From assembly GCA_018645325.1 (NCBI GenBank), contig JABGOU010000041.1, positions 1 to 34,327 of the forward strand: DNA of 34,327 bases. The letters run 5' to 3'. Within the stretch, counting starts at the first letter, position 1. Each line of letters opens with the position of its first letter. This DNA is from Desulfobacula sp. GTDB taxonomy: Bacteria > Desulfobacterota > Desulfobacteria > Desulfobacterales > Desulfobacteraceae. The translations under genes and the position numbers were made by a program. The notes beneath the pieces were generated by a model. It saw only the letters and a list, made by a program, of their open reading frames with translations. It ran no database searches and was not told where the DNA came from. Positions 21,646 through 34,327 of the stretch are shown in pieces.

Positions 21646-23160
21646 TTAGTCCGGCCGGTTGTAGCCTTTTTTAACAGCCTGCTCCATTAGCGATAGTTCT
21701 TCGTCGGTCAGGAAATCAAAATGAGCGGATCTTTTTCTGACAGAAAGGCTCCCATTGTTCTGAAGACACAGCTGGATGAACAGATCAATTAAACGGTCAG
21801 GCATGTCGATGATGTCCTGAATCGCTTTTTTGGTGTTATCATAGTTAGCAAGAAAGCTGAGTTCCTCCACAAGTTCTTCTTCAATGGTTTTGGCTATAAA
21901 CTCGTACAAAGCCTCTGCCTGCGCAGTCATATCCATATACTGATACCAGCAAGCAGTATCATTCTCGACGGTCATTTGCCCCATTTCACCCAGCCGATAA
22001 TCGATGAGTTGAAGTAAAGGCCGCGAGAAAGACTCCAGCGAAGCATCGTAATCCGCTGGATTCTTTAGCATGACTGCCGAAACTGGGAACATGAGTCCAC
22101 GCGGAACCATTCCCTGTAGTGAAAGAATGTTGTGTATCAGGAATCGATGAATTCGTCCGTTTCCATCTTCAAAAGGGTGAAGAAATACAAAGCCGTAGGC
22201 AATCGCCGCTGCATGGATGACCGGAGAAACGTTTCCCTCTTTCATCCGCTTGTGGGATTCAATCAGACCCAACATTAGATTTGGAAGATCATCAGGTTTC
22301 GGGCAAATAAAATGTATTACCTCCTTCTGGTAGGCGGCTGTTTGCCCTACATAATTTTGGCTGATCCGATAATCACTGTCTTTGAATCGAGGGTCAACAA
22401 TCCGGTTCTGAAGTTCTATCAGACGTTCCTTTTCGCAGAAGTCTTCTTTTCCGGCAAGCTCCAAAGATGTAATGAGTTTTTCAGTGCGGGATGCCTTGGG
22501 CTTTATGTGCTCAATTTCAAAGGATGACTTTGTTTCTTTTTTATAAAGGTAGCTCAGCGCCCGACGAAGAAGTTCCGGTGGATATTTGGTGACAATATCC
22601 TCACATTTTTTGCGCAGATCAGCTGAATCCAACTGGGCAAGTTTCTCTGTTCGTCGGATGATAGGACAGAAGGCGGCTTTGAGACCAAGGAGGTTGTTAA
22701 CTATGCGGTAGCGCTGGAATTTTCCCCCGTTCTGGACTGTGTAATATTTATTAGACTCCAATGCATCGACATAGTTGCCGGAAGTAATGTCATCAATGGG
22801 AAGCTGTTTTCCGGTCAGGAACTCATAGAAAAACCAGATCCTTCGAGCGTACTTTCCGATTGGCTTGGATTTGATGTACTCGGTGAGCTCTTCCTGAGGA
22901 ACATGCTCGAAGATGCGAACCAACAACCCTAGGTTGACGCCGTCATATTTCAGTGCAAACTCAAGATGGTCGCCGACTTTGTTTCCGGGCCAGTATTGAG
23001 TTCTGAAAACCTCATCAACAAAACTATCCTGAATCTTTGAATAGTTAGTGCCTGTGGTGGAAACCGATGACCCGTGCCAATTAGGCATGCCTGCAAGCGC
23101 AAACTTTTCCAGTAGGTATGTGTAACCTGCCGGGCGAAAATACAAACCGTTTGTTTCCAT
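21646..23160 (-). CDS. Fic-domain protein (probable AMP/NMP transferase)
   Basis: This is a 504-residue protein from the ATG at 23160 (GGGAG 8 nt upstream); an 18-codon in-frame extension to 23214 lacks a ribosome binding site. The central Fic core carries the complete catalytic motif HPFEDGNGRIHR at residues 328-339, with the essential His. An N-terminal helical region, including 'FLTGKQLPID', precedes it. At 213-218 is 'SFEIEH', which sits where class II Fic enzymes carry the inhibitory (S/T)xxxE(G/N) helix; the final G/N is His here. A C-terminal winged-helix-like tail follows ('SLSVRKRSAHFDFLTDEELSLMEQAVKKG'). Fic enzymes transfer AMP to Ser/Thr/Tyr of target proteins. The gene looks more GC-rich than its flanks, suggesting transfer. 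The target is unknown. Confidence 0.88.
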   Translation of the reverse strand: METNGLYFRPAGYTYLLEKFALAGMPNWHGSSVSTTGTNYSKIQDSFVDEVFRTQYWPGNKVGDHLEFALKYDGVNLGLLVRIFEHVPQEELTEYIKSKPIGKYARRIWFFYEFLTGKQLPIDDITSGNYVDALESNKYYTVQNGGKFQRYRIVNNLLGLKAAFCPIIRRTEKLAQLDSADLRKKCEDIVTKYPPELLRRALSYLYKKETKSSFEIEHIKPKASRTEKLITSLELAGKEDFCEKERLIELQNRIVDPRFKDSDYRISQNYVGQTAAYQKEVIHFICPKPDDLPNLMLGLIESHKRMKEGNVSPVIHAAAIAYGFVFLHPFEDGNGRIHRFLIHNILSLQGMVPRGLMFPVSAVMLKNPADYDASLESFSRPLLQLIDYRLGEMGQMTVENDTACWYQYMDMTAQAEALYEFIAKTIEEELVEELSFLANYDNTKKAIQDIIDMPDRLIDLFIQLCLQNNGSLSVRKRSAHFDFLTDEELSLMEQAVKKGYNRPD

Positions 23161-23188
23161 GGGCAAATCTCCCAAAACTATTATTTTA

Positions 23189-23370
23189 CTGCAAATATAG
23201 TTACAAATCAGCATTAAATCAACTAAAATAATTAAATTTGGTTATTTGTCCGCAAAAACAATTATTTAACATGGTGTGAGGATTACAATCTCAGGAGTTG
23301 CTGCAAAAATTGTTATTTCGCCTCAAAAAAGATTATAAATTAGCATTTTGCTGCAAAAATAATTATAAAA
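23189..23370. repeat. Cluster of five degenerate A-rich repeats upstream of fic
   Basis: Similar ~20-nt units begin at 23189 (CTGCAAATATAGTTACAAAT), 23250 (CCGCAAAAACAATTATTTAA), 23301 (CTGCAAAAATTGTTATTTCG), 23321 (CCTCAAAAAAGATTATAAAT) and 23351 (CTGCAAAAATAATTATAAAA). Start-to-start distances are 61, 51, 20 and 30 nt, all near multiples of one DNA turn. The cluster fills the gap between the methyltransferase stop and the fic start, so it is likely an operator array for fic, or an iteron/centromere-like site. Confidence 0.6.
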
Positions 23371-23405: not shown

Positions 23406-24848
23406 CTATTTCCCATAACTTTTTTGTTTCAGCAGGAGAATATACCGACTGGTAACGCCTATGATTTTTTTCTTCTGCATGGCAGTTACAGCGATCGCAT
23501 TAAACCGTTCCGAGGACAATGGAGCCTGAATGATATGGGTCAATTCCCATCCTGCCGGCTCCAATATTTTATAATAATCCGTCAGCAGGATCGCGTTTTG
23601 CGTTTCTTCCTCTAAAGCAGGACAGCTTTGAAAGTCACGCCAGTCAGAATTGATTAAGGCAAGCCGGGTTGTTTTCTTGGTTGTTTTTTTAAGGAACCTG
23701 AAAAAATTATCCAGAAAGTTCAGGTATTCAAGCCGGGACATCCGGGCAATACTTTTCTCTCCATATTCGGAAGCTTTTTTCTGAAAATAGGGGGGATCAA
23801 AAATAATCAGGTCCGGCTTTTCCCTGCCTGCAAGAATCGTATCTTCCCATTTTTTAATCGCCATGTCCCAGTAATAGGGTTCAATTTCAGGACGAAGGTC
23901 TGCACGGTCTTCCATATCAAGGCTCCAGCATTTCCTGCCCAATGCCAGACAGGTATCTGCAGTTACACCACCACCTGCCATTGGATCGAAAATCAGGTCA
24001 TCAGGATGGGAAAAATAAAAAAGAATGTGTCCGATCATCTGGGCTGGAATACGGCCGGGCCAGTCATCTCCGAACCGGGAATCACAATCATTGAAGTTCC
24101 ACAAATCCCATGTGCGCAACCCCCAGCCCAAGGCTTTAAAACGCGCTTGATCACTCAGCCCCTCTAACGCCAGTGAATACAGCATGGGTTCGCTCCAGCC
24201 ATGCTTTTCAGCCACCTGGGGAACGGTTAATCCACTGGACAAATCCCTATTTGGGGATTTTGTTAATATTAACATTTTCCCCAAATAGTTTCGGATAACA
24301 TCTCTGGTCTCCCCCAAACGTCCGGCAATTCTTTCTTGAGGAATTCCCAGCCGGTTCATCCGCCATATTTTTCGATCAAGTTTAATGTGTTGAATTGCCC
24401 TTAGATCAGCAATATAATTGGCAATAGTCTGTCTGGTTCTGCCAATAAGCTTACCAATTTCAGAAGAGGTTAACTTGGGATTGTTTTGAAAAGCGCGTCT
24501 TGCCGTATATCTTGTTTCCTTTTCAGTGAGCTGTCTTGGGCCGATTGCCATTTTAGCAGCATAAAGCAAAGGATCAATTCCTTTTAAATCTTTAATAATT
24601 ACGGGTATATCAGTTAAACCCGACTCTTTATGAGCGTTCCATCTATGCACCCCATCCAATATCCGGTATTTTCCTTTTTTTTCAGGATGAATTTGAACTT
24701 CAATGGGGTCAAATTTAAAGCCCTCCCTTAAATTTTCAGAAAAAATATGGACACGCTTATGATCAATCTTTTCTCTTGGATAGATTGACTCATCCAATGT
24801 GACATCCAGGATAGCGATTTTATCGCCCACGTTATTGCGAATAGTCAT
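23406..24848 (-). CDS. ParB-like / HTH / DNA methyltransferase fusion protein
   Basis: This 480-residue protein has three parts. Residues 10-90 are a ParB/Srx-like domain ('YRILDGVHRWNAHKESGLTDIPVII' pattern, near 61-85). Residues 105-225 hold helix-turn-helix elements ('TSSEIGKLIGRTRQTIANYI' at 127-146 and a second HTH-like run near 208-225). Residues 270-480 are an amino-methyltransferase domain: SAM-binding 'FDPMAGGGV' at 287-295 precedes catalytic 'DPPY' at 351-354. It should methylate adenine N6 or cytosine N4. No restriction endonuclease is adjacent, so it is probably an orphan methylase of the type carried by phages and conjugative elements. It lies 245 nt upstream of fic on the same strand, separated by the repeat cluster. 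Confidence 0.87.
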   Translation of the reverse strand: MTIRNNVGDKIAILDVTLDESIYPREKIDHKRVHIFSENLREGFKFDPIEVQIHPEKKGKYRILDGVHRWNAHKESGLTDIPVIIKDLKGIDPLLYAAKMAIGPRQLTEKETRYTARRAFQNNPKLTSSEIGKLIGRTRQTIANYIADLRAIQHIKLDRKIWRMNRLGIPQERIAGRLGETRDVIRNYLGKMLILTKSPNRDLSSGLTVPQVAEKHGWSEPMLYSLALEGLSDQARFKALGWGLRTWDLWNFNDCDSRFGDDWPGRIPAQMIGHILFYFSHPDDLIFDPMAGGGVTADTCLALGRKCWSLDMEDRADLRPEIEPYYWDMAIKKWEDTILAGREKPDLIIFDPPYFQKKASEYGEKSIARMSRLEYLNFLDNFFRFLKKTTKKTTRLALINSDWRDFQSCPALEEETQNAILLTDYYKILEPAGWELTHIIQAPLSSERFNAIAVTAMQKKKIIGVTSRYILLLKQKSYGK

Positions 24849-25239: not shown

Positions 25240-26250
25240 CAAGTTGTAATAAATTCACCCGGCACGATGATCAAACAAAAAGATGAATGTTTTTTGTTTA
25301 AAAACCAAGATAAAAAACTTGATTTATCGCCAATGAAAGTCGAATCTATTATTATTTCAAATAAGGCCATGATAAGTACACAGGCCATATCACTTGCGCT
25401 TGAAAATAATATTGATCTGGTCTTTCTGGATCGGTACGGGTTTCCCATTGGCAGGGTCTGGTTTTCAAAAATGGGTTCAACTGCTCTGATCCGAAGAAAA
25501 CAACTTGATGCGGCGAACTGTGAGCTAGGGCTGAACCTTGTGCTTGATCTTATCAGACAGAAAGTCAATAACCAGCTCGCATTCCTGAAAAAACTCAAGT
25601 ATGCAAGACCGGACAAAAAAGAACTCTTCCAGGCACCGCTCAACACTATTGAGGGTTCTCTTGAAGCACTTGACCGTAACTTTAAGGACCTTGATGAATC
25701 CCGTTTAATCATCATGGGGCTTGAAGGTACAGCAGGCAGAGCATATTTTTCATGTATTTCAAAAATAATGCCGGAAAAATTCCGGTTTAAAGGACGTTCA
25801 AAAAGACCGGCAAAAAATCAGTTTAATGCTGTATTAAACTATTGTTATGGGGTGCTTTATTCCAGGGTTGAAAAAGCGTGTATCATTGCAGGCCTTGACC
25901 CTTTTGTGGGCTTTATGCATACAGATAACTACAACAAAAAATCCCTTGTCTTTGATCTGATAGAACCTTTCAGGATTTTTGCAGAACAAACGGCCGTCTA
26001 TCTTTTTACCGGCAAAAAAGCAAAAAACGAATATTTTGATATCAAAGAACATTCCTGTTCCCTCAATGACAAGGGAAAGCCAGTGGTCATTGAATCGTTG
26101 AACCGGCACCTGGAAGAAAAAGTCAGATACAAGAGAAGAAACGTGAAAAGAAAATATATTATCAGCCATGAAGCCCATAAACTTGCCAATATTCTTCTTG
26201 AGGATGAGGCAATGGCGCATCCGGAGTGGCTGGATATAAAGGAATTTTAA
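25237..26250 (+). CDS. cas1: Cas1 integrase (type I-B), apparent ATT start
   Basis: Cas1 forms the spacer-integration complex with Cas2. From ATT the protein has 337 residues and begins (M)QVVINSPGTMIKQKDECFL, matching the usual Cas1 N-terminus ('M..vIn.pGt.i...de.f.v'). Starting at the ATG at 25267 would remove the first ten residues, including the first beta strand. Metal-binding catalytic residues are visible in ATT numbering: Glu163 ('GLEGTAGRAYF'), His228 ('GFMHTDNYNK') and Glu243/Asp240 ('FDLIEPFR'). The fold is Cas1b-like, as in type I-B loci. cas2 follows after 1 nt. It is the first gene of the cas operon, an unusual place since cas1 and cas2 more often come last in I-B. Confidence 0.93.
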   Translation: MQVVINSPGTMIKQKDECFLFKNQDKKLDLSPMKVESIIISNKAMISTQAISLALENNIDLVFLDRYGFPIGRVWFSKMGSTALIRRKQLDAANCELGLNLVLDLIRQKVNNQLAFLKKLKYARPDKKELFQAPLNTIEGSLEALDRNFKDLDESRLIIMGLEGTAGRAYFSCISKIMPEKFRFKGRSKRPAKNQFNAVLNYCYGVLYSRVEKACIIAGLDPFVGFMHTDNYNKKSLVFDLIEPFRIFAEQTAVYLFTGKKAKNEYFDIKEHSCSLNDKGKPVVIESLNRHLEEKVRYKRRNVKRKYIISHEAHKLANILLEDEAMAHPEWLDIKEF

Positions 26251-26251
26251 T

Positions 26252-26551
26252 ATGGCTAAGATTCTTGCATGGATCATGTATGATATTGTTTCAAACAAAA
26301 TCAGAAACAGGGTGGCAAAAAAATGTAAAAAATATGGCATGACAAGGGTTCAGAAAAGCATTTTTCTGGGCAAACTGGATATCAATCGATTTGATGAGCT
26401 GGCAGAGATCTGTCTGGACGAAATAGACGAGGAAACTGACAGTGTCTATCTCTTTCCTTTCTGCCAGGAAGATTTCAGACGAATCAACGTGCTTGGCCAG
26501 GGATTTGATAAACGACTGGTAAATGATGAAATTTTGTCTAAATTTTTTTAA
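26252..26551 (+). CDS. cas2: Cas2
   Basis: This is a 99-residue Cas2 with the ferredoxin-like start 'ILAWIMYDIVSNKIRNRVAKKC', where the Asp after the first strand (MYDI) is the conserved family residue. 'YGMTRVQKSIFLGKL' and 'DSVYLFPFC' follow. Cas2 dimers bridge two Cas1 dimers during spacer acquisition, and the nuclease activity is not needed for that. The start is 1 nt after the cas1 stop, so the two are coupled. The 'MYDI' form is more common in type I-B/III than the 'AYDV' form. Confidence 0.95.
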   Translation: MAKILAWIMYDIVSNKIRNRVAKKCKKYGMTRVQKSIFLGKLDINRFDELAEICLDEIDEETDSVYLFPFCQEDFRRINVLGQGFDKRLVNDEILSKFF

Positions 26552-26572: not shown

Positions 26573-27238
26573 ATGAAGAAAGCAACTCTCTATTTTAATA
26601 ATATCAAACTCAATCCTTCCCAGATTAACAAATTGCGGGGATATGTGGGTAATGTGTTTGCCGAGCATGATCTCATCCACAACCATGACAATGTAACTGG
26701 GAAAAGTATATATCGGTATCCTTTGATCCAGTTCAAAATTATCGACAATACTCCGTGCATTATCGCCATGACAGAAAAAGCGGTTCAGATTTTTACCAAG
26801 ATTTTCATGGGTCTGGATGAAATTGTTATTGATGGAAGAAAGATTCCGATTAATGAAAAAGATTTAAAAATAGAAATAGTTGAGTTCGGCTTTTCCCAGG
26901 AAACATTCATGTATGAATTCATCTCCCCCTGGATAGGCCTTAACCAGAAAAATTTTGCCGTTTATATCAATCTGAAGAATCAGAAAGAAAAAAATGATCT
27001 ATTGAAAAGAATACTAATCGGAAACATCCTGTCCATGTCAAAGTACCTTAATCTTCAACTTGATCAAGATCAGAAGATCAATGTCGACTTACAGTTTCAA
27101 CAGACAAAAGTCACATTAAAAGGCAAGCATATGATCGGTTTTAAAGGAATGTTTAAAACGAACTTTATGATTCCAGACTATATGGGGCTGGGGAAGTCAG
27201 TATCCCGCGGGTTTGGAAGTGTCAAAAAAATCTTATGA
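26573..27238 (+). CDS. cas6: Cas6 pre-crRNA endoribonuclease
   Basis: This 221-residue Cas6-type RAMP protein ends with a glycine-rich loop, 'GLGKSVSRGFGSVKKIL', typical of Cas6. The N-terminal RRM-like domain starts 'ATLYFNNIKLN', and 'HDLIHNHDN' near residues 32-40 offers histidines for catalysis (inference). Cas6 cuts the transcript in each repeat and leaves an 8-nt 5' handle. The array repeat ending ATTGAAAC fits that handle. The ribosome binding site is weak (GGTAAA). It lies 21 nt after cas2 and 16 nt before cas8b. Confidence 0.88.
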   Translation: MKKATLYFNNIKLNPSQINKLRGYVGNVFAEHDLIHNHDNVTGKSIYRYPLIQFKIIDNTPCIIAMTEKAVQIFTKIFMGLDEIVIDGRKIPINEKDLKIEIVEFGFSQETFMYEFISPWIGLNQKNFAVYINLKNQKEKNDLLKRILIGNILSMSKYLNLQLDQDQKINVDLQFQQTKVTLKGKHMIGFKGMFKTNFMIPDYMGLGKSVSRGFGSVKKIL

Positions 27239-27254: not shown

Positions 27255-28808
27255 ATGAGCCTGTCTTATAAATTATGGAAAATCGGCAGTGTACTTTCAC
27301 AAAAGGATATTAAGGACGTTATTAAGCTGAGTCCGGATGATAGTTTGAATGATGGAGATCAGCCCGAGTATATTAATCTTGATTTCAATATCAAGGATTC
27401 CGCAGTTGTTTCTCTGGAATTAAGAAGGGAAGCTATTTCTAAAAATAAAATGTTTTTTACAAAAAAAACGGGTGGGGCAGGAGGCGGAATTTATTACCTG
27501 TATCCAAACCTTCAATTAAAACTCAAGGAAAATGAAAGTCTTAAGACCAAACTTTTTCTTCTTATAAATACCATGAAAAAGAGTGTGCTTTGTTTTTCAG
27601 AAGGTCAGAATCAGGGGTTATCCCAGGCTATTATTGATTTTTTTGAGAATTGTGCTGACGATGAGGTCTTGGCCCTATTGGATGAAATCAAAGGTGGATA
27701 TTTCTGGCTCTGGATATCTGTAAACGGACAGTCACTACCGGAAAGCATGCCGGAAATTTGGACAAACTGGTATAAAACGCCTGTCAGCAAGCTGAAAGAA
27801 TCAGGAGTCGGGTATGATATTTTTACGAATCAGGAAGCCCTAGTCGGTTACCGTCCTGAATTCAAAATTTTTTCCTATGACCAGTATCATGATTCGTTAA
27901 ATTACAGGGTCAAAGAAAATCTTCCATTATCCCTTGAAAGCGCTGGAAATATAAAACTGGCATGGATCTATATCCTTGAAAAATTGGCTTTTTTTTATAA
28001 GGGACTGGAATATATTATTATTCCACACATGATAACTGATGATAAAAACGCCTTTCAAAAAGTTTTAAACCGGCTGGTCCGGGCCAATGTTGCAACAAAA
28101 AGAAAACCTGGGAAATTGGAGGTTCTTAGAAAAGAAGAAAAAAAATTAAAAAGAGATTTAGAAAAATTAAAAAAGACGAGAGATAGCAAAAAAAATATAA
28201 ATATAGGACAGGAAAGAGAAATTTCGGAAATGGACAAAGAATATAAAAAAACTATTGCCGAAATTGAAGTCCGGGACACTGGACTGATAACAGAATTTAA
28301 AGAACAGATAGACCATCTGGGAGATTTAAAAAATTCAGTTACCCTTGATTTTATCTTCACTGCAATAAACCGGACAAATCTTTCCTTTGAGGTGAAAGGG
28401 GCCATTGAAGATATCGTCCCCAGCAGACTGGCAAGGCTTGTGGATGATATGAAGTCAATTGGGATTGAAGATAATATTACATTGCATTCAAGGGACAGGG
28501 ACAAGGCTTATCTCCAGGATTATTTTAACCGGGATGAGCTCTATTTTGTTATCAATAAATCCCAAAAGCAGAACAAGAATCGTATTTTACAGGAAAGACT
28601 GCATCTGTCAAGGCTTATGCTCACGGATGAAACAATAACAATGGAAGATCTTCTGGCCCGATTTGAATTCCACAGGGAGACTGATTACGCCCATAAAAAA
28701 CGAATGAATAATGGAGTAAAGGATTGGATAAATTTTCCTGAAAATTATACCCGCCCGGAAAATAAATTACTGGAGTTTTTCCGTGCAATAAAAAAAATCA
28801 AGGAGTGA
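27255..28808 (+). CDS. cas8b: Cas8b large subunit (TM1802/Csh1-type), lacking its usual C-terminal region
   Basis: This 517-residue protein lies in the Cascade large-subunit position and has TM1802-like features: the 'MSLSYKLWKIGSVL' start, the 'SLELRREAISKNKMFFTKKTGGAGGGIYYLYPNL' pattern near 53-85, and 'WLWISVNGQSLPE' near 151-163. Residues about 285-340 form a very lysine/glutamate-rich coiled coil, an insertion-like stretch encoded by A-rich DNA. The protein recognises the PAM and holds the crRNA 5' region in type I-B. It stops at 'ENKLLEFFRAIKKIKE', before the helical C-terminal bundle expected in full Cas8b. That bundle appears to be supplied by the next gene, which starts 4 nt later. 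The ribosome binding site AGAGG precedes the ATG. Confidence 0.85.
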   Translation: MSLSYKLWKIGSVLSQKDIKDVIKLSPDDSLNDGDQPEYINLDFNIKDSAVVSLELRREAISKNKMFFTKKTGGAGGGIYYLYPNLQLKLKENESLKTKLFLLINTMKKSVLCFSEGQNQGLSQAIIDFFENCADDEVLALLDEIKGGYFWLWISVNGQSLPESMPEIWTNWYKTPVSKLKESGVGYDIFTNQEALVGYRPEFKIFSYDQYHDSLNYRVKENLPLSLESAGNIKLAWIYILEKLAFFYKGLEYIIIPHMITDDKNAFQKVLNRLVRANVATKRKPGKLEVLRKEEKKLKRDLEKLKKTRDSKKNINIGQEREISEMDKEYKKTIAEIEVRDTGLITEFKEQIDHLGDLKNSVTLDFIFTAINRTNLSFEVKGAIEDIVPSRLARLVDDMKSIGIEDNITLHSRDRDKAYLQDYFNRDELYFVINKSQKQNKNRILQERLHLSRLMLTDETITMEDLLARFEFHRETDYAHKKRMNNGVKDWINFPENYTRPENKLLEFFRAIKKIKE

Positions 28809-28812
28809 ATGT

Positions 28813-29259
28813 ATGCCGGAAAAGAAGAGTTCATTTAATGATTGTTTCCTTGTAAGAAAGGAAACAGATACTACAGGGTTTTATGGGAAATCTGCCATTC
28901 AAAAAGCCTATTTTATCGGGGCTTACGCCAAGGCAGTTATTAACCATTCTTTCTATTCTCCTGTAAGCAAGGGGAATACCACTTTTAAAAACTGGCTTTC
29001 AGGTCAGATTATCAATTACCGCAATCTGGACCGAATTTTTGAGATGGCTTTCAGATATGAGCAAAAACTCAAATTAAGGATTCGAAATGACTCTGAGGTA
29101 AGAAAACTTGCCCATGAAACTCCTGAATCCAAATCAAAAGGGATATCCGGCTCAAAAATTGCCTATGCCTTTGTTGCAGGATTTGACGATTACGGGAAAT
29201 TTTCAAAAGCAGAGCAGGCAAAAGAAGATGAAGAAAAAAATAAAGGAGAAAAAAAATGA
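28813..29259 (+). CDS. cas11b: Cas11-like small subunit (detached Cas8b C-terminal region)
   Basis: This 148-residue, mostly helical protein starts behind AGGAG that overlaps the cas8b stop, and its stop overlaps the cas7 start (ATGA). The order cas8b-this-cas7 is where a small subunit is expected. Its pattern resembles the C-terminal end of full-length Cas8b: 'AYFIGAYAKAVINHSFY', then 'TFKNWLSGQIINYRNLDRIF', a lysine-rich helix, and 'SGSKIAYAFVAGFDDY' recalling the 'sp.EiaFYFl.Gy' finish. In known I-B systems the small subunit Cas11b is made by internal translation from the cas8b mRNA. Here it appears as a real separate gene. The assignment is by position and pattern, not by a database match. 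Confidence 0.6.
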   Translation: MPEKKSSFNDCFLVRKETDTTGFYGKSAIQKAYFIGAYAKAVINHSFYSPVSKGNTTFKNWLSGQIINYRNLDRIFEMAFRYEQKLKLRIRNDSEVRKLAHETPESKSKGISGSKIAYAFVAGFDDYGKFSKAEQAKEDEEKNKGEKK

Positions 29260-30188
29260 ACAATTGTGCAAAACACAGTGAGCTGCTTTTTATTTGGGAT
29301 GCGAGAATGTGTAACCCCAATGGTGATATGGCAAGTGATAATGCCCCTAGATTTGATGATGTGGATGAAAAAGCTATTGTCAGCGATGTCCGCGTTAAAC
29401 GGACCATCCGGGATGATCTTCAATACCGGAAGCAGGAATTGATTTATATTAACAATGACGAAATCATTGCCCACGGGCTTAATGCTGAAGACCGGTTTAA
29501 GCAAATAAAAGATAAAAGTGATTTAAAAGAGCCTTTGGATGTTTTTCTTACCTGTATTGACAACAGGTTGTTTGGCGGAGTGGCTCCCAAAAGTAATATA
29601 CAGCTGGTCGGACCGGTCCAGTTTTCATGGACAAAATCATTGAATAAAACAGAAGCCATTCTTAAATCCGGCACGGGCGCCTTTGCAACAAAGGGAAAGG
29701 ATGGCGAAGCAAAATTTACAAAGACCTTTCGTGCGGATAATTATATCCCCTATGGGCTTTTTGCCATGTATGGCACGATCAACAGACTTCAGGCTCTTAA
29801 AGCAGGCACAACAGAAGAGGATATTCAGAAAATGTTGGATTCTCTCTGGTTCGGAACCAAACTGCTTAACACCAGGAGCAAGGTGGGACAAAAATCAAGG
29901 CTGCTCATCAGAATCACCTACAAGGAGGACAATAGCTATTTTATCGGTCTCTTGGACGAGCTAATCGGATTGGACAACGAAGATAGTGATCTGATCAGAC
30001 AGATCAGTGAAGCTGAGATTGATTTTTCAAATTTTATTTTGGCTGTTAACAAGGCAGAATCTTATATTGAAGCCGTTGAAATTGTCTGTGATGATTCATT
30101 AAAACAATACAAAAAAGAACTCGAACAAATCAAGAATGTGAAAATAATGGATGAAGTGGAATTTGCATCACTTGGTCATCAGGATTGA
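29256..30188 (+). CDS. cas7: Cas7 backbone subunit (Csh2-type)
   Basis: This 310-residue RAMP protein has the Csh2 signature 'ELLFIWDARMCNPNGDMASDN.PR' near the N-terminus, 'VSDVRVKRTIRDDLQ' near 41-55, and later 'DNRLFGGVAP' and 'TFRADNYIPYGLFAMYG'. Cas7 subunits line the crRNA spacer in the Cascade helix and contact target DNA. The ribosome binding site AAAGGAG precedes the ATG, which overlaps the small-subunit stop. A C-terminal helical extension ends 'SLGHQD'. Confidence 0.93.
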   Translation: MNNCAKHSELLFIWDARMCNPNGDMASDNAPRFDDVDEKAIVSDVRVKRTIRDDLQYRKQELIYINNDEIIAHGLNAEDRFKQIKDKSDLKEPLDVFLTCIDNRLFGGVAPKSNIQLVGPVQFSWTKSLNKTEAILKSGTGAFATKGKDGEAKFTKTFRADNYIPYGLFAMYGTINRLQALKAGTTEEDIQKMLDSLWFGTKLLNTRSKVGQKSRLLIRITYKEDNSYFIGLLDELIGLDNEDSDLIRQISEAEIDFSNFILAVNKAESYIEAVEIVCDDSLKQYKKELEQIKNVKIMDEVEFASLGHQD

Positions 30189-30203
30189 TAATGCGGGGTG
30201 CCT

Positions 30204-31079
30204 ATGTTTTGTTTTAAATTATGGAGTAACTTCGGTGTATTCAGGGATCCTCTGACCATTACCCAGAACCTTACCTTCCCTATTCCACCCAAAACAACAA
30301 TAGGGGGGATGATGGCATCAATACTGGGAATTGATTATAACGAATATTTCAATGACCCGGAATACTTTGATTTTAAATATTCTCTGGTGCTTGAAAAAGC
30401 GATCAGGAAAAAGAGTTTTACTCAGAATTATGTGGCTGATTATACAAAGAAGTCTGAAACGAAAATCACTGCCATGGGGAAATTTTTAAAAACCAGAAAA
30501 AAATACAATGAACTGGTTCAGGAAAAAGAACGGTTGAAAGATTGTTCTGACCCATCCAAAAAAGAAGAAACGTTTTTAATGGCGGCTGATCAGAAAATTG
30601 AAACCGAATTCAAAAAATTAGGGAAATCGGCAGATAATTGTTCAAAGGCATTCAATAACAGTTTCAGATCGCCAAAGCCAATTTTCCGAGAGCTTCTCAT
30701 TAACCCGGAATATTTTATCTTTGTAAAAGATTTTAAATATGAAGAACAAATTATTCCACTCCTTCAGACTCATTCCAGTGCATTTTACTTTTATATGGGG
30801 AATAGTGAATTTCCGGCTAACTACAGGTTGTTGGATTGTGAATGGGAATTGGAGGGATCGAACATCCTGAATTCTTTTACATCAAAACCCTCAAAAATCG
30901 TTTTTGAAGGCGGGAAAAAATACACAAATGTTTATATGGCCACCAAAACCATTGGGGAAAGAGAATACAGGGACTATAAAAGTTTTATTTTATGCGACAA
31001 GCCTATTCTGTTGAAAGATAAAAATCAGGCCATTGCTGTCAAAACCAATGCGGGAAAATATTATTGTGAATTTGTTTGA
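30204..31079 (+). CDS. cas5: Cas5 (type I-B)
   Basis: From the ATG at 30204 (GGGGTG just upstream) the protein has 291 residues; an in-frame GTG two codons earlier is less likely. The start 'MFCFKLWSNFGVFRDPLTITQNLTFPIPPKTTIGGMMASILGI' pattern is the classic Cas5 N-terminus, with the aromatic-Phe core and the 'PPKTTIGGMMASILG' turn. Cas5 caps the crRNA 5' handle and joins Cas8b to Cas7. A lysine-rich central insertion (about residues 90-150) is larger than usual. The stop lies within cas3's possible N-terminus, so translation is coupled. Confidence 0.9.
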   Translation: MFCFKLWSNFGVFRDPLTITQNLTFPIPPKTTIGGMMASILGIDYNEYFNDPEYFDFKYSLVLEKAIRKKSFTQNYVADYTKKSETKITAMGKFLKTRKKYNELVQEKERLKDCSDPSKKEETFLMAADQKIETEFKKLGKSADNCSKAFNNSFRSPKPIFRELLINPEYFIFVKDFKYEEQIIPLLQTHSSAFYFYMGNSEFPANYRLLDCEWELEGSNILNSFTSKPSKIVFEGGKKYTNVYMATKTIGEREYRDYKSFILCDKPILLKDKNQAIAVKTNAGKYYCEFV

Positions 31080-33348
31080 TATTGAAAAAAAATATTGGTC
31101 CCATCCGAACTATCCTGTTCAAAAACATTTGGACAATATCGCAGCCTCTTTTGTGGAGAATTCCCACAAGGAGGCTGCCTTTTTTCATGATACAGGGAAA
31201 CTTACAGATGAGTTTCAAAAATATATAAAAAATCCCGACCATGCAAGACGTACAACCCACGCCCTTGAAAGCGCCTTGATCTATTTGATGAATAAAAATT
31301 ATAAGATTACACCTGAATCATTTGCCATTTTTTATGCTGTTTTGAAACACCATGGAGATCTTGCAGATACGAATAATTTTTTGGATGACAAGCTGTCTTT
31401 CATAGATGATTTATTGGAAACATATCCTGATCTTGAAAAAAGATTAGAAAAGATTTGTGACAGAATCGATTTGTCATTAGACTTGGACCTGGAGGAATTT
31501 TGTAATTTATTTGATTTGGAGGACTTTGTAGAAGAGTATGATCTTGTAGCATTTGAAAATTATTTTTTAATTAAAGATGTTTTTTCCCGATTGATTTTTT
31601 CAGATAAATATGAAGCCATTTTTAAAGAATCTTATTCAGAAAAAAAATCGCATCAATGGAAAACATATATTTCAAATCTTGTTAAATTAATTGAATCAAA
31701 AAATAATAAAATGGCTTTTGTGAGAAATCAGGCACGAAAAGAAATCATCACCACCTACAAAAAGAATAAAGCTAAACGTATTTTTATAATTGGAGCACCC
31801 ACCGGAATCGGGAAAACATTTTCAGCACTACAACTTGCCCTTGAAATTTGTCATGATAAGAATAAAAAAAGAATAATTAATGCCTTGCCCATGACATCCA
31901 TAATTGATCAAACGCATGAAGAATATAGTTTAATTTTAGGAAATAATGATTTGCTTAAATTCCATCATTTAACCCATTCAAAAAGCTATATATCCCATGA
32001 TAATGAAGGAAGAAAAGAGAGAGAATCTTTGTCAAAGCAGCAAAATGATTTCACTGCCATGTCATGGTCTTCAGATGCGGTAATCGTGACCACTTTTAAT
32101 CAGCTTCTAAATATTTTTTATTCAAATAAAAACAGGGATCTTGTCAAGTTTTGGACAATTCGTGACTCTGTTATTATTTTGGATGAAATACAGGCGATAC
32201 CAAGGGTTTTAATTCAGGATTTGGCAAAGACCATAACCTACCTGTCAAAAAGCTTTAATATTGATTTCATTTTAATGTCAGCTACAATTCCTGGAATCAA
32301 ACAATTTATCCCGAAAGGCATAATGGCTGAGTTACTTGACAAACGATATTTTTCAATGGATTTCAATAACCGGTACTCGATTCAGATAAATACGCAGATC
32401 AACGATATGGAATCCCTTCTTTCGGTGGCAAAAACAAATTATAAAAACAATAATTCTTTATTATGTGTGGTAAATTCAAAAAAATTGTCATTGGATATCT
32501 ATAGCGAGTTAAAAGACAATTTGAGAAAAAACATTTCCTCTTCTGAGTTATTCTTTCTAAATACAAATATTATTCCAAAATGCAGGGCCAGTATAATCAG
32601 CACCATAAAAAAAAGGCTGCAAAAAAAACAAAAAACTCTCCTCGTTTCAACACAGGTTGTTGAAGCAGGCGTCGATCTTGATTTTGATTTTGGCATCAGA
32701 GAATTTGCTCCTCTTTACAGCATGATTCAAGCAGCCGGTCGTATAAATAGAGAAAACAGAGAAGGACTAAACAAAAGTGCTAAATTGATAGTAACTGGTA
32801 AAATAGGCTATTGCCCATATCACCCTACAGATTTGTTGAAAGAAGAGGTAATAGAATTATTTTCTTCAGAGATAAATGAGAACAGAATACTTCCACTCCT
32901 TGAAAAATATTTCCAGATCGTTATGGACAGGGTAGCTCCAGACCCATTATTATACCAGAATATGCAAAAACTAGACTTTGAAACAGTGTATCACATTTAT
33001 TTAAACAATTTCATGAAAGCGATTCCAAATGTTGAACCTGTTTTTGTTGAAATAGAAAAAGGTCTGCATCAAACATTTTTTTTGAGAATTGATACACTTC
33101 ACAAAAAAATGAAGCAACCGGGGAAATCCATGGAAGAAAAAATGGAATGCAGGAGCAAATTGAAAAGTATACTCAAAAAAATATCCCAATATGTTATCAA
33201 CGTTTCTAAAAATGAAACAGACGGATTGCAAGATTTACATGAAATAGTTCAGATCAAAGTCTGCCCATATGAATTTGTTAAAAATGGAACAAAATATTCC
33301 TGTGAAAAAGGTTGGTTAGGAGAAAAGACATTAACATTAAATTTTTAA
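31033..33348 (+). CDS. cas3: Cas3 HD nuclease-helicase
   Basis: Up to 771 residues from TTG 31033; ATG 31048 and GTG 31066 are alternative starts and none has a clear ribosome binding site. The N-terminal HD domain has its metal ligands: His32, HD at 52-53 ('FFHDTGKLTDEFQ'), His in 'RTTHALE' and 'KHHGD' near 106. The helicase part has Walker A GAPTGIGKT (254-262), DEIQ (384-387), SAT (416-418), 'VSTQVVEAGVDLD' and 'QAAGRINRE' as motif VI. It is recruited by target-bound Cascade and unwinds and cuts the displaced strand. All key residues look intact, so interference should be functional. The frame overlaps the cas5 end. Confidence 0.95.
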   Translation: MLSKPMRENIIVNLFDIEKKYWSHPNYPVQKHLDNIAASFVENSHKEAAFFHDTGKLTDEFQKYIKNPDHARRTTHALESALIYLMNKNYKITPESFAIFYAVLKHHGDLADTNNFLDDKLSFIDDLLETYPDLEKRLEKICDRIDLSLDLDLEEFCNLFDLEDFVEEYDLVAFENYFLIKDVFSRLIFSDKYEAIFKESYSEKKSHQWKTYISNLVKLIESKNNKMAFVRNQARKEIITTYKKNKAKRIFIIGAPTGIGKTFSALQLALEICHDKNKKRIINALPMTSIIDQTHEEYSLILGNNDLLKFHHLTHSKSYISHDNEGRKERESLSKQQNDFTAMSWSSDAVIVTTFNQLLNIFYSNKNRDLVKFWTIRDSVIILDEIQAIPRVLIQDLAKTITYLSKSFNIDFILMSATIPGIKQFIPKGIMAELLDKRYFSMDFNNRYSIQINTQINDMESLLSVAKTNYKNNNSLLCVVNSKKLSLDIYSELKDNLRKNISSSELFFLNTNIIPKCRASIISTIKKRLQKKQKTLLVSTQVVEAGVDLDFDFGIREFAPLYSMIQAAGRINRENREGLNKSAKLIVTGKIGYCPYHPTDLLKEEVIELFSSEINENRILPLLEKYFQIVMDRVAPDPLLYQNMQKLDFETVYHIYLNNFMKAIPNVEPVFVEIEKGLHQTFFLRIDTLHKKMKQPGKSMEEKMECRSKLKSILKKISQYVINVSKNETDGLQDLHEIVQIKVCPYEFVKNGTKYSCEKGWLGEKTLTLNF

Positions 33349-33383: not shown

Positions 33384-33992
33384 ATGACTATTTTAAATCA
33401 CCCGAGAAATGCTATATCAATAACGCCCTCAATGCTCATTGAATATACATTCTGCCCTCGGTTTATCTATTTTATGTTTGCTTTGGATATTCCCCAGCGA
33501 GAAGAAAAGCGGTTTAAAGTCATTAAAGGGCGGAGAATTCATGAAGAAAAAGCAAATATCAATAAAGAATATTTGCGTAAGAAACTTGGTGTGGTTGAAA
33601 AGCAAAGCAATATTTACCTTTCATCAAGTCAATATCATCTCAGAGGAATAATTGACGAGATACTGACTTTTGCAGACAACACAATGGCGCCCCTTGATTT
33701 TAAATATGCAAAATACAAAGAGATAAATTATAAAACACAAAAGATACAGGCATTATGTTATTCTCTCATGATCGAAGATAATTACGGGGAAAAATCAAAC
33801 AGGGCATACATCGTTTATACACGATCAAAAAATAAATTCGTTGAATTGAAATTTAATGAAAAAGATAAATCGGAATTGAAAAAAAGTATCAAAGAGGTTA
33901 TTCACATTATTAAGACGGGTTTTTATCCCAAGCGGGCATCATCTATAAAGCGTTGTGCTGACTGCTGTTATAAAAATATTTGTGCAAACTGA
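33384..33992 (+). CDS. cas4: Cas4 nuclease/PAM-selection factor
   Basis: This is a 202-residue Cas4 of the RecB family. Iron-sulfur cysteines are Cys24 ('YTFCPR') and Cys191, Cys194 and Cys200 ('CADCCYKNIC'). Nuclease residues are Asp91 ('IIDEIL'), Asp105-Lys107 in 'PLDFKYAK' (Asp where many have Glu) and Gln122 ('KIQALCYSLM'). Cas4 trims prespacers and checks the PAM with Cas1-Cas2. It sits at the operon's end next to the array, far from cas1-cas2 with which it normally groups. The gap after cas3 is 35 nt. The initiator has no strong Shine-Dalgarno sequence. Confidence 0.92.
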   Translation: MTILNHPRNAISITPSMLIEYTFCPRFIYFMFALDIPQREEKRFKVIKGRRIHEEKANINKEYLRKKLGVVEKQSNIYLSSSQYHLRGIIDEILTFADNTMAPLDFKYAKYKEINYKTQKIQALCYSLMIEDNYGEKSNRAYIVYTRSKNKFVELKFNEKDKSELKKSIKEVIHIIKTGFYPKRASSIKRCADCCYKNICAN

Positions 33993-34151: not shown

Positions 34152-34327
34152 GTCTGAATTCCATATCCAGAAAAACAAGGATTGAAACAAAAAGATTTAT
34201 GGATGCTGGAAGAACAACACGAAGGTCTGAATTCCATATCCAGAAAAACAAGGATTGAAACTCGAGATATCCATTCAAAAAACGGCTTGCACTATTTGTC
34301 TGAATTCCATATCCAGAAAAACAAGGA
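34152..34327 (+). CRISPR. CRISPR array (type I-B repeats), continuing past the window
   Basis: Three copies of a 37-nt repeat start at 34152, 34225 and 34298; the last is cut after 30 nt by the window edge. The repeat begins GTCTGAATTCC and ends ATTGAAAC. The two full copies are identical. Spacers are 36 nt each (34189-34224 and 34262-34297), giving a 73-nt period. The terminal ATTGAAAC is typical of the 8-nt crRNA handle of type I-B systems with Cas6. The first repeat is leader-proximal, so the two spacers shown should be the newest. Neither shows an obvious match elsewhere in this window. Confidence 0.97.

Follow-up and report, generated by a model that had tools for sequence, protein, structure and literature searches.

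In ordinary type I-B systems the small subunit Cas11b is translated inside the cas8b gene, as reported for Synechocystis PCC 6714 and Haloferax volcanii and inferred for Thermotoga maritima (PMC11096372, PMC11899642, PMC13199841). According to the description of the Synechocystis structure, the belly of the complex is made of the C-terminal portion of Cas8b, which is identical to Cas11b, and of three Cas11b subunits; the belly contacts the non-target strand, which is held by basic residues of Cas11b (PMC11096372). The account of the T. maritima system states that Cas8b failed to purify with the complex when Cas11 was missing, that the internal start was inactive in E. coli, and that Cas11 was supplied as a separate gene beside full-length Cas8b (PMC13199841). 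With respect to gene content, the 2011 unification (PMC3150331) and the 2025 classification (PMC12669027) state for such subtypes that the small subunit either is fused with the large one or has no gene, and in the 2026 T. maritima paper only types I-A and I-E are given a Cas11 gene of their own (PMC13199841). Literature searches limited to open-licence PMC papers showed no report of a stand-alone or split Cas8b/Cas11 in type I-B; reports elsewhere are possible.

Here we describe a locus in which the Cas11-like domain of Cas8b appears to have a gene of its own. We class it as a type I-B variant that is new, but not as a new type. The window, i.e. the whole stretch of DNA that was analysed, comprises 34,327 nucleotides of Desulfobacula sp. 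(contig JABGOU010000041.1), and its cas genes form a single operon in the order cas1, cas2, cas6b, cas8b, small gene, cas7, cas5, cas3 and cas4, followed by a CRISPR array (Table 1). Pfam, NCBIfam and PADLOC together recover the I-B set of Cas7/Csh2, Cas5, Cas6b, Cas3, Cas4, Cas1 and Cas2 in this one operon. The scores for the I-B-specific Cas5 model TIGR02592 (46.7, cut-off 97) and the I-B Cas1 model TIGR03641 (150.6, cut-off 304.1) lie under their cut-offs. The array contains two Rfam RF01320 matches (34152-34188 and 34225-34261). Beside the operon, on the opposite strand, there is a gene (23406-24848) whose single protein product combines a ParB N-terminal domain with an N6/N4 DNA methylase domain according to Pfam, and a Fic/DOC-domain protein of 522 residues is encoded near the locus, also on the minus strand (21646-23214).

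Table 1. Features of the type I-B operon and array. The start given for cas3 is the mechanically chosen first start codon.
Feature	Coordinates	Strand	Evidence
cas1	25267..26250	+	PF01867 E 6.7e-75; TIGR00287
cas2	26252..26551	+	PADLOC Cas2b E 2.1e-36
cas6b	26573..27238	+	PF17262 E 1.6e-42; PF17955 E 2.8e-24
shortened cas8b, 517 aa	27255..28808	+	PF09484 E 6.4e-14; Cas11-like C-terminal domain lacking; no CxxC pairs
Shine-Dalgarno AAGGAG of small gene (last two sense codons of cas8b)	28800..28805	+	sequence
putative stand-alone small-subunit gene (cas11b), 148 aa, ATG start	28813..29259	+	hhalign to Cas8b C-terminus with controls; kept in 6 genomes
cas7 (Csh2 family)	29256..30188	+	TIGR02590 217 bits, cut-off 171.55
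cas5	30198..31079	+	PF09704 30.4 bits, cut-off 23; TIGR02593 31.1 bits, cut-off 17.8
cas3 (HD-helicase)	31033..33348	+	TIGR01587 and TIGR01596 above cut-off
cas4	33384..33992	+	TIGR00372 E 2.4e-39
CRISPR array start	34152..34327	+	37-nt repeats, 36-nt spacers; contig end cuts third repeat

A sequence-only reading of the window had pointed to a 148-residue protein with its own ribosome binding site between a 517-residue Cas8b and Cas7, coupled to both, and had suggested that it resembles the C-terminal end of Cas8b and that the two genes represent a complete split. The reading frames are as it described, and the ribosome binding site is AAGGAG; the small gene begins after a gap of 4 nt behind the cas8b stop, and its own stop overlaps the start of cas7 as ATGA. 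The proposed resemblance was borne out by profile-profile alignment, in which the small proteins fall on the final ~120 residues of full-length Cas8b. Three small proteins compared with seven full-length Cas8b gave an hhalign E of 3.8e-5 (template 536-653 of 658); five compared with 26 scored 39.1, and 100 column shuffles reached at most 22.5; six scored 40.1 against the 26 whole proteins and 41.3 (E 1.5e-6) against the C-terminal domain alone. The controls for these six remained far lower, i.e. 15.2 for Cas8b minus the C-terminal domain, 15.7 for reversed Cas8b and 14.6 for Cas7. A 27th full-length gene (L068) is absent from the 26-gene profile sets. Note that the profile signal comes from one subgroup, g1, with 15 full-length genes; taken singly, three of the four subgroups had no match to the small proteins (5, 2 and 4 genes; scores of 20.1, 14.6 and 15.2). 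We take these profile alignments as showing homology between the small protein and the Cas11-like end of the full-length Cas8b proteins.

The neighbouring Cas8b shows the complementary picture. It matches PF09484 with 52.1 bits (cut-off 25.1) over positions 239-469 of 602 only, and when the five split Cas8b proteins are aligned with the 26 full-length ones by hhalign, the alignment is confined to 172-466 of 651. The last 130 residues of the split proteins, used alone, gave nothing past 466 of 651. The 517-residue protein thus stops aligning ahead of the C-terminal domain, and the full C-terminal bundle that the earlier reading had named as the observation that would speak against a split was not found in it. 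We conclude from the alignments that the shortened Cas8b lacks the Cas11-like domain and that this domain is encoded as a separate gene. A further difference concerns the CxxC...CxxC zinc-finger pairs, which are present in 26 of 26 full-length proteins, whereas none of the five split ones (window, L003, L036, L004 and L037; the split L067 and the full-length L068 were outside this count) contains any CxxC. Residues ~285-345 of the split Cas8b form, as judged by eye, a lysine/glutamate-rich, coiled-coil-like stretch. In the sixth split locus, L067, the PF09484 match to the genome runs through the stop to position 599; the L067 small protein alone has no Pfam match, therefore this read-through alignment was not counted as evidence.

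We regard it as quite probable, given the homology, that the small gene encodes a Cas11b that stands alone and, together with a tail-less Cas8b, makes up the entire belly of Cascade. Ribosomes that finish cas8b would start again on the small gene. Its basic, presumably helical product (pI 9.0-9.7 in five sequences) would be present in several copies along the filament of crRNA and Cas7, where it would hold the non-target strand, and one copy would fill, non-covalently, the place that is normally taken by the Cas8b tail. By homology, all belly positions, including the one next to Cas8b, would then be occupied by the product of the separate gene, and Cas8b would keep PAM recognition.

The spacing of the genes is in keeping with such a scheme. 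In all six split loci the small gene starts 4-9 nt past the cas8b stop, with a Shine-Dalgarno-like sequence within the final cas8b codons (AAGGAG in the window, L003, L036 and L067, AAAGGA in L004 and AAAGGGG in L037; the L067 site lies 12 nt upstream of the gene), so the small gene looks translationally coupled to cas8b. The anti-Shine-Dalgarno duplex energies in the window are -7.1 kcal/mol for cas8b, -8.0 for the small gene and -8.7 for cas7, and over five split loci they range from -6.4 to -7.1, -5.4 to -8.0 and -7.9 to -8.7, respectively. Compared with the site of cas8b, that of the small gene is weaker in L004 and stronger in the other four loci. These energies fit coupled expression but do not demonstrate independent tuning, and the idea of an independently tunable Cas11 stoichiometry, which the sequence-only reading had put forward, therefore found no support.

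The extent of the small protein equals that of the Cas8b C-terminal domain, and the spacing of the starts points to synthesis that is coupled and perhaps close to equimolar; both features would also suit a protein that is simply a detached tail, present in one copy per complex on Cas8b with no extra Cas11. We consider this improbable, in view of what the relatives seem to do. Published descriptions of types I-B, I-C and I-D report free small subunits besides the tail (PMC11096372, PMC13199841, PMC11899642, PMC12235044), and candidate internal starts are general among the full-length genes. Within a zone of 45 codons before a conserved KKAxFLxG-type motif, all 26 full-length cas8b genes (from loci L006-L034) contain an in-frame ATG, GTG or TTG preceded by a Shine-Dalgarno-like sequence of at least 4 nt (17.4 expected), and 23 of them have one of at least 5 nt, as opposed to 6.8 expected after synonymous shuffling. 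The site with the longest Shine-Dalgarno sequence in each gene lies 20-39 residues ahead of the motif. In the alignment, which is anchored on G36 of the small protein (placed on the G of FLxG), the start of the small gene lies 28 residues ahead of the corresponding position, i.e. the internal starts of the full-length genes are near the point where the split gene begins. The linker starts of L010 and L011 are of the TTG and GTG type.

A second alternative is that the small gene has no relationship to Cas11 and encodes some accessory or regulatory protein, inserted in the operon behind cas8b and ahead of cas7. The family libraries searched (Pfam, NCBIfam and PADLOC) give the small gene no name: PADLOC had no match, the only NCBIfam match was at chance level (E 0.078; 12 bits, where the cut-off is 625), Pfam had none for the small protein of the window or of L067, and over five split members Pfam returned four chance-level matches, the best being Csf1_C with E 0.047. 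The stand-alone Cas11 proteins of types I-A and I-E are Csa5 and Cse2, and the curated models of the stand-alone families of these types in the three libraries gave no significant match. Sequence searches of the PDB returned chance-level matches only, for instance DHX58 with E 0.07 for the small protein. An AlphaFold2 model made from three split rows was poor (pLDDT 63.9), and one made from a 20-row alignment was all-helical with six helices (pLDDT 79.7); as its rows were the five split sequences plus the tails of 15 of the 26 full-length Cas8b (all from subgroup g1), the better model is not independent of the homology claim. Foldseek comparison of the small-protein models with the PDB gave no match at E <= 0.001, and none was significant among viral structures. 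Among the 46 matches listed for the 20-row model, a TMq of at least 0.40 was reached in two only, both type I-C entries with a non-significant E: 9jhc chain A (112 residues, titled RacrIC1-Cascade; TMq 0.40, E 3.7) and 8g9u chain H (582 residues; TMq 0.47, E 6.5). From size and title these are presumably Cas11c and Cas8c, and they hint weakly at a Cas11-like fold. The lack of a significant family or fold match would agree with an unrelated insert, yet the small protein matches the part that is absent from this Cas8b, and the shuffled, reversed, truncated and Cas7 controls were negative. Moreover, the small gene is found in all six loci with a shortened cas8b, whereas the distance from the cas8b stop to the cas7 start is at most 39 nt in each of the 26 full-length loci examined, which leaves no space for an extra gene (two strongly negative gaps in this list are wrong start choices by the script). 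An unrelated insert is thus very unlikely.

The possibility that the small gene is joined to cas8b by a frameshift or stop read-through, so that a Cas8b of full length results, draws on L067, where the frames agree and only TAA and 9 nt intervene, but it is contradicted by the other loci. The small gene is offset from cas8b by +1 in the window, L003 and L036 and by +2 in L004 and L037, so that a single recoding event cannot join all six; in these five of six loci it is an open reading frame in a different frame and not an internal translation product, and each of the six has its own start with a Shine-Dalgarno-like sequence upstream. We give recoding hardly any weight.

The arrangement recurs in other genomes. 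When 389 genomes from the class of the window were surveyed with PF09484, 31 of them gave 35 match rows. These correspond to 33 genes, since in G641 and in G621 a single gene accounts for two rows. Six of these cas8b genes are split, namely those of the window, G582 (L003), G013 (L004), G628 (L036), G694 contig 180 (L037) and G621 (L067), and 27 are full length, reaching at least profile position 570 in one reading frame with 577-707 residues. The conserved order that the earlier reading had anticipated was found: all six split loci have cas6-cas8b-small-cas7-cas5-cas3 (cas6, cas5, cas3 and cas4 of the relatives were named by eye from their likeness to the window proteins). Five also have cas4 downstream, in L037 after another open reading frame, and L067 ends within cas3. 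The small proteins are 61-94% identical to that of the window and the Cas8b proteins 45-83% (five loci compared), which means that the small gene is conserved at least as well as the large subunit. The nearest named relative is a Desulfobacula metagenome-assembled genome (L003) with a small protein of 94% identity; between it and the window, a simple Nei-Gojobori script gave a dN/dS of 0.085 for the small gene (140 codons), 0.155 for cas8b and 0.071 for cas7. The small gene is under purifying selection, and although the genome is in fragments (157 contigs, with 90% completeness), an identical anatomy in six genomes down to 61% identity leaves a sequencing error or a decaying pseudogene with next to no probability.

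A survey of 395 genomes of the phylum found PF09484 in 10 and no further split beyond the window; one of its loci, L010, was already known. Three loci were inspected and set aside: L043 is a cas8b fragment at a locus end, L038 (G413) is a full-length-type cas8b broken by a mid-region stop far from the Cas11 boundary, and L045 contains masked bases; none of the three has the split pattern. An earlier class survey of 147 genomes had found PF09484 in 12, three of them split. With the small protein alone as query, 2 of 194 genomes of the order were matched. Within the genus the protein is present in 2 of 26 genomes and absent from G577 and G760, which have a full-length cas8b. A two-row profile of the small protein matched 2 of 395 phylum genomes, the window and G410 (L005, E 0.006); the latter match overlaps an unrelated-looking open reading frame of 418 residues and was dropped. 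L003 and L004 were the only loci recovered by a contig scan, which was limited to two short peptide patterns. With the PADLOC Cas8b model PDLC01343, which missed the window itself, no further split was apparent in 389 genomes. No relatives were found in IMG/VR, nor any of the small protein or of the split Cas8b on plasmids; the nearest plasmid Cas7 (36%, Deferribacter) stands beside an unsplit TIGR02556 cas8b. One genome, G694, holds both a full-length I-B cas8b (L019) and a split system (L037). Extra small open reading frames are seen between cas2 and cas6 in L037 (4757-5179) and L004 (3283-3564), and ahead of cas4 in L037 (12725-13048). By eye the two in L037 resemble PIN-domain and nucleotidyltransferase genes, possibly toxin-antitoxin parts in the cas operon.

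A Cas7 tree was built from 39 rows, namely the six split loci, 26 loci of the class and 8 of the phylum, minus the fragment L033. The split systems form one clade in it (support 100/100), and the stem of this clade is long, with 2.2 changes per column. The same single clade is obtained with five split rows; the root is arbitrary, and the tree gives the stem no firm position among the full-length groups. A single origin of the split arrangement is likely from this tree. Putting these results together, we somewhat favour the view that the split systems are a deep-branching, separate I-B variant, so far seen in one class only, which builds an I-A-like Cascade from a minimal Cas8b with neither tail nor zinc finger and a belly supplied entirely by the cas11b gene. 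As part of the same reading, and with the same reservation, we would place the variant where encoding of the small subunit by two genes borders on the gene-within-gene mode. Two routes to this state can be envisaged. A stop codon may have been placed ahead of an internal start, which then became the start of a gene, or the lineage may retain an older two-gene state and the internal-start genes would have arisen by fusion.

A stand-alone Cas11b in type I-B is of interest for several reasons. The lineage would be an exception within type I-B to the published rule on separate Cas11 genes, as that rule is worded in PMC13199841. As mutations can be made in the small subunit while cas8b stays intact, the locus offers a natural test of the purpose of the covalent link between Cas8b and Cas11, and it may also serve as a natural template for a heterologous I-B Cascade.

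It is useful to compare the split locus with the systems that come closest to it. In subtype III-H, as outlined in the 2025 classification, the tail of the large subunit was likewise lost in favour of a separate small subunit, a diverged Cas11 that apparently took the place of the Cas10 C-terminal domain (PMC12669027). That system is of type III and its Cas11 is a diverged one, whereas the small subunit of the window is a homologue of the very domain that its Cas8b is missing. Types I-A and I-E share with the window a small subunit with its own gene, as stated in PMC11899642 and PMC13199841. They differ in that no sequence-family match links them to the window's protein, the gene set of the window is that of type I-B, and its small subunit is a homologue of the I-B Cas8b tail. 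The closest counterpart is the I-B Cascade with an internal Cas11b. As far as it is described, it shares with the window the Cas8b core, Cas7, Cas5, Cas6 and Cas3, and a small subunit that corresponds in sequence to the Cas8b C-terminal domain, but the Cas8b of the window stops before that domain, has a separate small gene behind it and lacks the CxxC pairs of its PF09484 relatives. The split locus would thus represent a second way to build a known machine, in which a part that is normally encoded within cas8b is encoded separately and Cas8b does without it.
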